DNA from: Betaproteobacteria bacterium
Lineage (GTDB): Bacteria; Pseudomonadota; Gammaproteobacteria; Burkholderiales; Burkholderiaceae_D
DNA length: 63,704 bases
Assembly (NCBI GenBank): GCA_016868055.1
Contig: VGHX01000003.1
Coordinates: forward strand, 1 to 63,704
Direction of reading: 5' to 3'
The notes under the pieces are model-generated. The model made no database searches and was not told the DNA's origin. It worked only from the letters and a program-made list of their open reading frames with translations. Below, piece after piece: positions 37,734 through 48,508 of this stretch. Within the stretch, counting starts at the first letter, position 1; every line of letters begins with the position of its first letter. The translations under genes and the position numbers were made by a program.

Positions 37734-38108
37734 TTAAAAACCGGTCTCGGCACGAATACCTTCCAACGCCGGCGTACGGAAGCGGATCAGACTCTTGTGC
37801 CCAATGCCATGATGTTCAAGCGACTTGCCCACATCAGGAATAAAGCGTTTGTTCGAGTTGAACCACTGCACACTTTTCCAATCGATATCCTCGAACTCGG
37901 GGTGCTCGCCATACAACTCCGGCAGCACTTCCATGATCACCGCACCGAACGGCAAGGTGCGCGGCACCGGAATGCAGAAGGGTGCCGCGAACATCGGATG
38001 ATTTTCCCAGTGCAGATACAGCAGATGCTTGCCGTGGAATTTGTCCTCGGTGTCTTGCTGAATCAGCGGGTAGTCACCGATGTGGCGTAGCATGTCATTG
38101 GTTGTCAT
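37734..38108 (-). CDS. dmpO: Phenol hydroxylase P4
   Basis: HPEFEDIDWKSVQWFNSNKRFIPDVGKSLEHHGIGHKSLIRFRTPALEGI. Confidence 0.92.
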   Translation of the reverse strand: MTTNDMLRHIGDYPLIQQDTEDKFHGKHLLYLHWENHPMFAAPFCIPVPRTLPFGAVIMEVLPELYGEHPEFEDIDWKSVQWFNSNKRFIPDVGKSLEHHGIGHKSLIRFRTPALEGIRAETGF

Positions 38109-38112
38109 GGCG

Positions 38113-39678
38113 TTATTCCCCCATGCCTTGCGGCTTCATGCGACCACTCCATGCGCGGAAGTGCTTGCGGTCTTTGCTGTTGGTGAAGTCGCCGTTATCC
38201 TCGCCGGCATGCACGTCGTAGTAGCGCATCACTTCACGCACCGGGCTGTCGCCAGGTGAGGCCGGGTTGATATCGTCCGGGTAGCAGCTGCCCTGATAAA
38301 TCTGATGCACCGGCAACCAGGACTGCGCGTATTTCTTCGGCTCGTGCTCGAAAATTTCTTTGCAGTGGTCGCTGCAGAAGTGGTACTTCATGCCGTGGTA
38401 GTCGGTCTCACGCAGGCTGATCTGCGTCGGGTCACCTTGCTCGGTAAACAGCGCGGGTACCTGACACACCTGGCACAGCATCGGCAACACCTGGTTGTAC
38501 CAACGGCCTTCTTTGCCTTTGGCTTGCTTGTCCCAGTACTCCAGACGCGGACGGTAGTAACGATCGAAGCTGTCGGGATATTTTGAAGACAGCCAGTCCA
38601 TCTCGTCTTTGCTCGGCACCCAGGTATGGAATGCGGTGGCATGACCATACTGGTAGAACGTTGCCCAGGCTTGGTGGCTGATATGGTCCTTGCCTTCGCA
38701 GGCCTGTTCCCAGCCTTTCGGCTTACGAATGCCGTAGCGGGCGAGATCGGCAAACAGTGCGCCACCGTTCTCTTCAGCGTACATGGTCCATGCTTCTTTC
38801 CAGCTCATCACGCGCTTGGGCAGCATGTAGTCCTGCATCATCGCCACCAAGGTCAGCAGGCGATAGCCGCGCCAGAACCACTTGTCCATCCAACGTTGCA
38901 CGATCGGCACGTTTTGCGGATCCTGCTCCAGCATGAACTTGATGCACTCGATGCCGAGTGTCATGTGACGTGATTCATCTGACTGCGCCGAGAAGCCGAA
39001 GGTCACAGTCGACAAATCACCGTTGTGTGCCGCGCCCGACATGAAAGGCACGAACAGCAGGTTGGTCAGCACATATTCAAACGAGAAGCTGACCGCAGTG
39101 AGAAACTCGAACGGGCCGCCGGTATAAGCATCTTCAAAGAAGCTCTTCGGCACGGACAGATACCAGACATTGTCGAACCAGGCCGGCGCATTGTGCATGC
39201 CGTTGTAGTACTTGTTGTAGTGCGAGATAGCGTGCGTCTCGGTTTGGCAGTGACGCAATTCATCGACCGCCTGCATCTGCGCAGCGACACGCGCACCAGC
39301 ACCAGTGAACTGACGGCCAGCGTGGGCGAAGCCACGGTGTGCGTAGTACTCGAGGGGTGTGACGCCTTGAATGAATAGCTTGAGCGCGTTGATATAACGC
39401 GCATCGGTGACACCGAGTTCGCCATGGTTTTGTGCGAAGGCCTCGATCACCGCATACAGCTTGCGCTCTTTTTCGCCCTGGTATTTCCAGTAGGCCTCCA
39501 TCGTCAGACGGAATGGGTCTTCCCACTTATCCCAGTCGTGCACGATGATGCCTTCGTAGCGATCATACGGAAACACTTTATCCATCGGTTGATAAGTGGT
39601 CTCCCAGTGCAGATCACGGGTCATTGCCGCGTAACGCTCTTTCAGGCCAAGTTTCTTTTTGGTGACTCGTGTGTCCAT
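38113..39678 (-). CDS. dmpN: Phenol hydroxylase P3, oxygenase large subunit (diiron ligands intact)
   Basis: PLE110YY, DE140LRH143, SFE201Y, DE235SRH238; C-terminal CQVC...HFCSDHC. Confidence 0.95.
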   Translation of the reverse strand: MDTRVTKKKLGLKERYAAMTRDLHWETTYQPMDKVFPYDRYEGIIVHDWDKWEDPFRLTMEAYWKYQGEKERKLYAVIEAFAQNHGELGVTDARYINALKLFIQGVTPLEYYAHRGFAHAGRQFTGAGARVAAQMQAVDELRHCQTETHAISHYNKYYNGMHNAPAWFDNVWYLSVPKSFFEDAYTGGPFEFLTAVSFSFEYVLTNLLFVPFMSGAAHNGDLSTVTFGFSAQSDESRHMTLGIECIKFMLEQDPQNVPIVQRWMDKWFWRGYRLLTLVAMMQDYMLPKRVMSWKEAWTMYAEENGGALFADLARYGIRKPKGWEQACEGKDHISHQAWATFYQYGHATAFHTWVPSKDEMDWLSSKYPDSFDRYYRPRLEYWDKQAKGKEGRWYNQVLPMLCQVCQVPALFTEQGDPTQISLRETDYHGMKYHFCSDHCKEIFEHEPKKYAQSWLPVHQIYQGSCYPDDINPASPGDSPVREVMRYYDVHAGEDNGDFTNSKDRKHFRAWSGRMKPQGMGE

Positions 39679-39735
39679 GAGGGGTCTCCGGTGGGTCAGT
39701 GTGTAAGGGTGTGGGTGGTAAAAAATTTATTGTTA

Positions 39736-46938: not shown

Positions 46939-47208
46939 TTAATGCTTCCAGCTCAAGACGAATTCGTCGTCATCCTCATCAAGGTTGCCCGACAAGGTCA
47001 CCAGATTGATCTGCAGCTCTTGTAGATCGTATTTGCGGCCAATGATCTCTTCGATGGTTTCGCGTTTGACTACTAAGCGATTCGGCGCATCGATTTTCAC
47101 TAAACCGGGCGAGTAGACGACTTGTGCCTCCGGGTTATCGGCGACGATTGCGTCGACCAGTGGGCGCGATTCTTCGTTGGCTTGAAACGCGATGAATACG
47201 TTGGACAT
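46939..47208 (-). CDS. dmpM: Phenol hydroxylase P2 (MmoB/DmpM regulatory component)
   Basis: MSNVFIAFQANEESRPLVDAIVADNPEAQVVYSPGLVKIDAPNRLVVKRETIEE. Confidence 0.93.
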   Translation of the reverse strand: MSNVFIAFQANEESRPLVDAIVADNPEAQVVYSPGLVKIDAPNRLVVKRETIEEIIGRKYDLQELQINLVTLSGNLDEDDDEFVLSWKH

Positions 47209-47250
47209 GTCTTCCCCTGTGTAATTGTGATGAGCGTGTAGACGGTTCGC

Positions 47251-48249
47251 TTACAGCGTGATACCGATCTTGGCGACACGCGCATTAAATGCAGTACGCA
47301 CCTCGGCCAGCGCTTCCTGACCATGCTCACCCAGCGCGATCTCGGCGACCGGTGCCAAACCTGCCTGCACCCGGTCGGACCACGCCTGGATCCAGCCGGT
47401 GACGATGTGCTTGTTCTCATCCGACTCAGCCGCGCAGGCCTTTACGATTGCATCGACCCAGCGCGCGCACTCGTCGTGCCACTCGGGCATGAACGAGGTC
47501 AGCATCGCGACGGCAGTGCCGCCTTTCAAGGTCAGGTGCTCGTCAACGAACGAGCCGTAAATCAGCGGGTAGAGCAGGCCATCGAGCGCGAGGTTTTGCG
47601 CAACGAACATCTCCATCGGGTCTTTCATCACCAGCGTGTCTTCCACCAGACGGCGCAACACTTGCCAGCGCGGGTCATTCAGCCAATCATTCTTGCCGGT
47701 CTGGAGTACGGCGGGGTCATCCACTGCCAGGCCAAAGCGCGTCAGGTACTGCGCGATACCCAAGTGATCCATCGCATGGAAATTGCAGGCTGCCGTGATG
47801 GCAGTGCCGTAGCCGTAGGCGCAGATAAAGGTGTTATTCATATTGCCGGCCCATGCCACATGGCGCAGCGGCATCAGCACCTTGCAAGCGCTCTCGCGAA
47901 CCTCATCGGTCATACGCGAGAGCAGACCGCGCGAATCGACAAAGCTGTAGTTAGCCTCAACCGCTTCGTGTTGACGCGCGCGTGTGATGGTCCAGTTGGC
48001 GTAGTAGTACTGACGTGGATCTTTCAGCACATACCAATCAGCGAGCTTGATCGCCGAGCGCGACGCATCGTAGATCTCGTGCGCTGGATCCCACGTCGGG
48101 CGGTAATGGAAGTTTTGCGTCGGCTGCAGACCAAGCGTCGCCTCTTGATAACGCGTCGCCGGCTTATCGCCACCAATATGTTTTGCGACGTGTGTAAAGG
48201 TGTTGCGGGCCGGTTTGATTTCTTTAGCCTGCAGATCAATGCTACTCAT
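47251..48249 (-). CDS. dmpL: Phenol hydroxylase P1 (oxygenase small subunit)
   Basis: 332 aa, GGDKPATRYQEATLGLQPTQNFHYRPTWDPAHEIYD. Confidence 0.93.
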   Translation of the reverse strand: MSSIDLQAKEIKPARNTFTHVAKHIGGDKPATRYQEATLGLQPTQNFHYRPTWDPAHEIYDASRSAIKLADWYVLKDPRQYYYANWTITRARQHEAVEANYSFVDSRGLLSRMTDEVRESACKVLMPLRHVAWAGNMNNTFICAYGYGTAITAACNFHAMDHLGIAQYLTRFGLAVDDPAVLQTGKNDWLNDPRWQVLRRLVEDTLVMKDPMEMFVAQNLALDGLLYPLIYGSFVDEHLTLKGGTAVAMLTSFMPEWHDECARWVDAIVKACAAESDENKHIVTGWIQAWSDRVQAGLAPVAEIALGEHGQEALAEVRTAFNARVAKIGITL

Positions 48250-48508
48250 CGTGCTCTCCCAGCTTGTTTTCGACGGGCTCGTCGAGGAATTGGACGTTGT
48301 TTTTGATGCAGAAATCGTTGAATAGGTCTTCCGGTAGCGCCAGCTCGACGCTCATATCGGGCCAGCCGACCGAGTATTCGAAGTTGACGAAGCCAGTCGC
48401 GCTGCGGCTGGTGACGCGGACATAACGCCGAGCCAAGGTGTCGGCATCGGCTTCGAGTGCGACCGAGTCTTTCTCGGGCAGTGTCGGTTCGGAGGGCGCT
48501 GACATCAT
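48242..48508 (-). CDS. dmpK: Phenol hydroxylase P0 (assembly component)
   Basis: RYVRVTSRSATGFVNFEYSVGWPDMSVELALPEDLFNDFC; start chosen at MMSAPSEP. Confidence 0.88.
   Translation of the reverse strand: MMSAPSEPTLPEKDSVALEADADTLARRYVRVTSRSATGFVNFEYSVGWPDMSVELALPEDLFNDFCIKNNVQFLDEPVENKLGEHDE

Follow-up and report, generated by a model that had tools for sequence, protein, structure and literature searches.

The closest described relatives of the locus reported here are the phenol hydroxylase operons dmpKLMNOPQB of Pseudomonas sp. CF600 and aphKLMNOPQB of Comamonas testosteroni TA441. They have in common with it the six hydroxylase subunits, a ferredoxin, a catechol 2,3-dioxygenase (C23O), a sigma-54 activator with a GntR partner, and downstream meta-cleavage genes. 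In the bacterial multicomponent monooxygenases (BMM), among them the methane, toluene, and phenol hydroxylases, a metal-bearing alpha subunit is always accompanied by a related beta subunit without metal; the beta subunits are old relatives of alpha, and their origin has only been guessed at. We analysed a stretch of 63,704 nucleotides (hereafter the window) from Betaproteobacteria bacterium assembly GCA_016868055.1 (contig VGHX01000003.1, positions 1 to 63,704), in which a phenol hydroxylase operon differs from the dmp and aph operons by seven added genes between dmpO and dmpP, by the possession of two N-O pairs, and by a promoter-proximal N that lacks the diiron site. The upstream pair, denoted N' and O', has lost iron ligands in N' but is held by strong purifying selection and does not consist of decaying relics. 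Our explanation of the whole, a cassette-bearing phenol hydroxylase with phenol uptake and a retained non-catalytic N'-O', is one that we regard as somewhat better than even on the sequences at hand.

Uptake genes within operons for aromatic compounds have precedents. Putative benzoate ABC transporters, controlled by AphS or BenR in Dechloromonas and Thauera, are found in box/bzd and aph/ben clusters (PMC6449761); like the transporter in the window, these are ABC uptake genes in aromatic operons, but they are assigned to benzoate, lie beside aphBCEH or box/bzd and not within hydroxylase genes, and have no N-O pair. The CouPSTU system of Rhodopseudomonas palustris, also an ABC importer, has a binding protein with nanomolar Kd for aromatics (PMC3610893), although its ligands are phenylpropenoids and, unlike the window's transporter, it lies outside a hydroxylase operon. 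In the open-licence papers that we searched, we found no liv genes within a phenol hydroxylase operon, no DmpN without its diiron site, and no account of the gene order itself, a prior account being one of the outcomes that a preliminary description of this DNA, made from the sequence alone, had said would undo its claim. The parts are of known kinds; what is new relative to that literature is the arrangement, the transporter cassette with its own catalytic pair, and the selected metal-free alpha paralogue.

Gene order and its occurrence

The operon runs on the minus strand in the order P0, P1, P2, N', O', substrate-binding protein (SBP), LivH, LivM, LivG, LivF, N, O, P5, ferredoxin, and C23O. 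The order given in the preliminary description was recovered in full, with every gene in its place, on the minus strand, and in the expected family. All six phenol hydroxylase components, P0 to P5, are present. P0 (DmpK-like, PF06099; 48242..48508), P1, the hydroxylase beta subunit (DmpL-like, PF02332; 47251..48249), and P2, the effector (DmpM-like; 46939..47208), are followed by N' (P3'; 45367..46908), a DmpN paralogue of 513 residues with PF02332 and no diiron site that is probably the native copy, and by the DmpO paralogue O' (P4'; PF04663, 66.6 bits; 45014..45370), whose start overlaps the N' stop (ATGA). On the far side of the transporter lie N (P3; PF02332; 38113..39678), an intact DmpN-type catalytic alpha subunit, and O (P4; PF04663, 97.6 bits; 37734..38108), a DmpO-type gamma subunit. 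The final three genes, at 35283-37666, fall just beyond the interval covered earlier (37734-48508) and are contiguous with it: P5, an FAD/2Fe-2S reductase (DmpP-like; 36608..37666); a 2Fe-2S ferredoxin (DmpQ/AphQ-like; 36239..36598), recognised by sequence, position, and orthologues in relatives; and C23O (DmpB/AphB; 35283..36227), which scored 441.5 bits on TIGR03211 against a cut-off of 320.2.

N, N', and P1 are the only PF02332 genes in the genome to which the window belongs (2.7 Mb, 195 contigs, 99% complete), which leaves two alpha-type genes to one beta and excludes a redundant classic phenol hydroxylase elsewhere in it. Because P1, P2, and P5 are each single-copy in this genome, activity requires P1 and P2, encoded upstream of the transporter, together with P5, encoded downstream; that both sides are needed had been argued at the outset. 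Each of the seven relatives in the genus has a single phenol-hydroxylase P1 alongside two alphas, full or partial.

Queried with N', bacterial genomes yielded 77 loci, about 60 of them with the classic contiguous order from which the window, with seven genes between O' and P5, departs. The genome search for the split order that had been recommended was successful: the order was unbroken on single contigs at L005, L006, L007, L012, L014, L053, and L095, and cut by contig ends in others. These are independent contigs in at least six genomes besides the window's, and an assembly collapse or mis-join, the other outcome that would have undone the claim, is ruled out. Among 21 species sampled in the window's genus, SBP was found in 8 and the N gene in those same 8; phenol hydroxylase and liv genes co-occurred in 8/8, and all phenol-hydroxylase species there have the split order. 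No SBP was found outside the window's genus in an order-level sample of 399 genomes at E <= 1e-100, and plasmid carriage was rejected, with only homologues of <60% identity to show for it, nearly all rhizobial. The records of the split layout whose titles were read were all metagenome bins, an origin that may explain why the layout went unnoticed.

Iron ligands of N' and constraint on its sequence

By alignment, the diiron ligands of N are E110, E140, H143, E201, E235, and H238; the complete six-residue site (EEHEEH) bears out the earlier statement that the downstream pair is catalytically intact, and every downstream N with all six ligands readable is EEHEEH without exception. At the same positions N' reads KQHETH: three of the four Glu are replaced, both His are retained, and the four Glu and two His expected of a catalytic alpha subunit are not all there. 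Over 512 residues N and N' share 54% identity, and they belong to separate clades, which rules out a recent tandem duplication or repeat. Among upstream copies the series is graded, though it follows no strict order on the tree, from EEHEEH (L007, L012, L013, L014, L017, L054) through partly altered EEHDEH (L094) and EEHDTH (L095) to the further altered KEHDAH (L093) and NTHDTH (L092), KQHEVH (L090), and KQHETH (L091 and the window). Four genus members have D at position 201, where the three-member group that includes the window has E.

A second group (L053, L061, L109) has N' copies that read EHHNKH or EHHTKH and are shortened to 483-486 residues, with O' absent. In the tree this group sits, with an unsure placement, inside the genus on a long branch; a tree that keeps it outside the genus clade was not rejected by the approximately unbiased (AU) test (p = 0.25). 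Its different ligand pattern, together with the tree of downstream N, makes it likely that the metal site was lost there independently of the loss in the genus.

The alpha fold appears to have outlasted the ligands. N' matches PF02332 with 184.6 bits and aligns with PhN, the phenol hydroxylase alpha subunit of Pseudomonas sp. OX1 (PDB 2INN, 2INP, 3U52), over 494 residues (571.5 bits). Its predicted structure (AlphaFold2; predicted local distance difference test 73, predicted template modelling [TM] score 0.80) matches PhN chain 2INN_A with a TM of 0.87, a result to be discounted to support and not proof because active homologues were in its alignment. Relative to PhN, N' has lost three of the four Glu ligands and has altered ligand helices, while residues 321-440 are nearly unaltered. 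Cys402/405/435/439 (Zn-type) and His143/238 are retained in 8/8 metal-less N' copies. An iron-less subunit of alpha fold encoded in a hydroxylase operon recalls the BMM beta subunits (DmpL, TmoE, MmoY). Unlike them, N' is a recent alpha, as its identity to N indicates, and stands in an operon where P1 is still there; it is not a beta subunit, and its weak sequence match to a beta chain is in line with alpha-beta kinship.

The preliminary description called the upstream pair degenerate, which holds for its iron ligands but not for its genes, which are not decaying. The pairwise ratio of nonsynonymous to synonymous substitution rates (dN/dS, NG86) of the window's N' was 0.046 against L090 and 0.057 against L091, at dS 0.79 and 1.03; corresponding values were 0.05-0.06 for SBP (window against L090 and L091), 0.04-0.08 for O' (against L090 and L091), 0.024 for N (window against L091), and 0.089 for N' within the second group (L053 against L109). 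The N' frame was intact in every liv locus spanning the gene; neutral simulations retained it in 0 of 200 runs, even at a divergence of 0.1. Frame and dN/dS together exclude a pseudogene, and N', with its catalytic residues lost and its frame and purifying selection kept, has the properties of a pseudoenzyme. Of 300 sites that are near-invariant in 73 active homologues, 170 have the residue in every one of the five metal-less N' of the genus, and 77 have lost it in at least four of the five. Losses were fewer in residues 321-440 (3/44 constrained sites) than elsewhere (74/256; Fisher p = 0.0012), this region having been picked post hoc.

Origin of the arrangement and possible role of the upstream pair

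The layout had been read initially as a duplication of N-O plus the insertion of a transport module, a history that is not the one best supported by the trees, which favour a liv-N-O cassette. Downstream N forms a single clade (100/100) and downstream O forms a single clade (100) on a stem of 0.93, both exclusive to liv-adjacent loci. Upstream N, by comparison, occupies several separate positions among classic operons; the copy from the Sphaerotilus bin clusters with a Ralstonia-type classic operon (97/98), and P5 of that bin also groups with those operons (86). A single clade for P5 of all liv loci is disfavoured (AU p = 0.026), and P1 is uninformative on the question (p = 0.23). Given N and O clades exclusive to liv loci and a P5 that does not form one clade, insertion of a ready-made cassette is the simplest account: the seven genes SBP-LivHMGF and N-O probably entered between native dmpO and dmpP, and the degenerate pair would be the native one. 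In favour of an N-O pair instead doubled in place in one ancestral operon, with liv inserted between the copies and the upstream copy later losing its metal site, are the direct flanking of the transporter by both pairs and a tree that joins downstream N and all upstream N (except L054) in one clade, which the AU test does not reject (p = 0.24). The restriction of both downstream clades to liv loci, the long stem of O, the dispersal of upstream N, and the divided ancestry of P5 nevertheless leave in-place duplication an unlikely history. The cassette, if correctly read, is an example of a transporter travelling with catalytic subunits into existing operons.

We propose that the operon is a phenol hydroxylase and meta-cleavage operon under sigma-54/DmpR control, with the liv-N-O cassette separating the native dmpO from dmpP. 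The SBP would capture phenol, or a close phenolic, in the periplasm, and the compound would be imported via LivHMGF, as the position of these genes suggests. Hydroxylation would then be carried out by cassette N and O in a presumed assembly with upstream P1, with P2 as the effector and P5 as the reductase. Native N'-O', presumably freed from catalysis, has lost the carboxylate ligands of the diiron site and kept its fold-defining residues under purifying selection. As the likeliest single role, it may act as a non-catalytic alpha-gamma partner on P1, whether as part of mixed dimers (alpha alpha' beta2 gamma gamma') or in complexes of its own that contain P1. That the pair shares P1 and tunes assembly or activity is a tentative reading of these sequences, which we would not yet back against the sum of its alternatives. 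Similar reserve applies to the wider idea that N' has recently become a metal-free subunit with a regulatory or scaffolding role that shares beta with an active alpha. It would then repeat, possibly in two lineages, the ancient step from alpha to beta, and the trigger would have been a portable cassette carrying a transporter and its own catalytic subunits. With one genus and its neighbours holding states of an alpha paralogue from intact to metal-free, under selection, the question of how beta subunits originated becomes testable.

Several observations count against a settled function for N'-O'. Mean pN, the proportion of nonsynonymous sites that differ, is 0.194 for N' and 0.052 for N (about 3.7 times, from unequal pair numbers), and omega (dN/dS) of N' reaches 0.29 in the L092-L093 pair; together these indicate some relaxation of constraint, though constraint is far from absent. 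In the second lineage O' has gone and N' stays, and the pair need not, therefore, act together. The faster evolution of N', the loss of O' in that lineage, and the ATGA overlap would all suit a relic on its way to loss whose frames are kept merely for translational coupling or mRNA integrity. We give this little credence, since dN/dS is near 0.05 at dS near 1 with frames intact that are promptly lost in neutral simulations, and since the constraint is specific to amino acids (the Zn-type Cys and the 170 of 300 sites), which coupling alone would not preserve. An N' that is a neofunctionalised enzyme, active or metal-binding through other ligands (one metal held by Glu201 and the pair of His, for instance) or active on another substrate, would account for the presence of both His in 8/8 metal-less copies and of Glu/Asp201 in all five genus copies. 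However, E110 and E235 are replaced in 5/5 genus copies and E140 in 4/5 (by K/N, T/V/A, and Q/T, respectively), the second lineage retains E110 and loses the others, and we know of no BMM that works without its carboxylate ligands; a new enzymatic activity thus seems quite improbable.

Transporter, control region, and neighbouring genes

The five transporter genes, all on the minus strand, encode in one operon the SBP, two permeases, and two ATPases of a Liv/HAAT-type importer: SBP (PF13458; 43650..44900), a LivH-type permease (PF02653, BPD_transp_2; 42730..43614), a LivM-type permease of 493 residues (41242..42723), and LivG-type (40500..41231) and LivF-type (39736..40503) ATPases, both with PF00005. 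In LivM the PF02653 domain (BPD_transp_2) occupies residues 42-312, and every liv locus that has a full-length LivM retains the C-terminal extension of ~180 residues past the permease domain.

The substrate of this importer is probably phenol or a close phenolic, judging from its position and from the precedent of CouP of Rhodopseudomonas palustris, where ABC uptake of aromatics has been established by experiment (PMC3610893). The SBP itself points partly elsewhere, in that its nearest solved relatives are Leu/Ile/Val-binding proteins, matched with weak scores. Phenol is, moreover, able to cross membranes passively. Both facts weigh against phenol import, and the first would suit a transporter for another nutrient or aromatic whose place in the operon is incidental, as would the gene neighbourhood of a rhizobial SBP homologue (49%), given below. 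Such a transporter is on the unlikely side, in our judgement: the liv genes lie under a phenol-type promoter and always with cassette N-O where the contig reaches, none was found in the genus without a phenol hydroxylase, and SBP is conserved (mean pN 0.063). Low-concentration phenol use may accordingly involve a dedicated ABC uptake system encoded within the hydroxylase operon.

The rhizobial homologue belongs to L098, on a Rhizobium plasmid, where the SBP gene (49% identical) and liv genes adjoin those for an aldehyde dehydrogenase, a GMC oxidoreductase, and an HpaB-like hydroxylase; this context suggests a broader aromatic-linked Liv subfamily. At L097 (G342), a few kb separate a 45% identical liv set from an XylR/DmpR-type regulator that is likewise 45% identical, and no phenol hydroxylase genes were found in that stretch.

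Ahead of P0 is a putative sigma-54 -24/-12 promoter, TGGCAC-GCCAC-TTGCG (48558..48573, minus strand); TGGCAC-N5-TTGC occurs at the matching place in all genus loci examined. About 170 bases above it is a palindrome, TTGATGATTTCATCAA (48738..48753, minus strand), a putative DmpR/AphR-type upstream activating sequence that matches the palindrome core TTGATNATTTNATCAA exactly. A divergent XylR/DmpR-type (AphR) sigma-54 activator with PF06505 XylR_N, V4R, and Sigma54_activat domains (48818..50491, plus strand) is followed by an AphS-like GntR/FCD regulator (50563..51288, plus strand). The AphR motif, and AphS as the partner of AphR, are described for the aph system, whose AphR-AphS pair these two genes match (PMC6449761). 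On sequence, promoter, upstream palindrome, and XylR_N activator together mark a sigma-54/DmpR-dependent operon, and we infer a single operon from P0 to C23O behind one conserved promoter.

Between the cistrons of O' and SBP is a hairpin with a 13-bp stem (44954..44990, minus strand; z = -3.5 in the window), a possible determinant of the ratio between the operon's halves. It is without a T run, and past one compensatory pair in L090 there is weak support for it in other relatives; a conserved RNA element at this site was rejected as strong in the window with little support beyond L090.

Lower meta-cleavage genes follow the operon at 27554-34106 (minus strand): an aldehyde dehydrogenase, two FAA-hydrolase-fold genes, an acetaldehyde dehydrogenase, a DmpG-type aldolase, and an HbpS-like gene. 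One of the seven genus relatives also has a separate toluene-monooxygenase-like cluster, to which a dedicated NtrC-type regulator belongs (L119, G179:C65). Elsewhere in the window, two cyanophycin synthetase genes of ordinary kind lie in tandem at 13737-18566 (minus strand).

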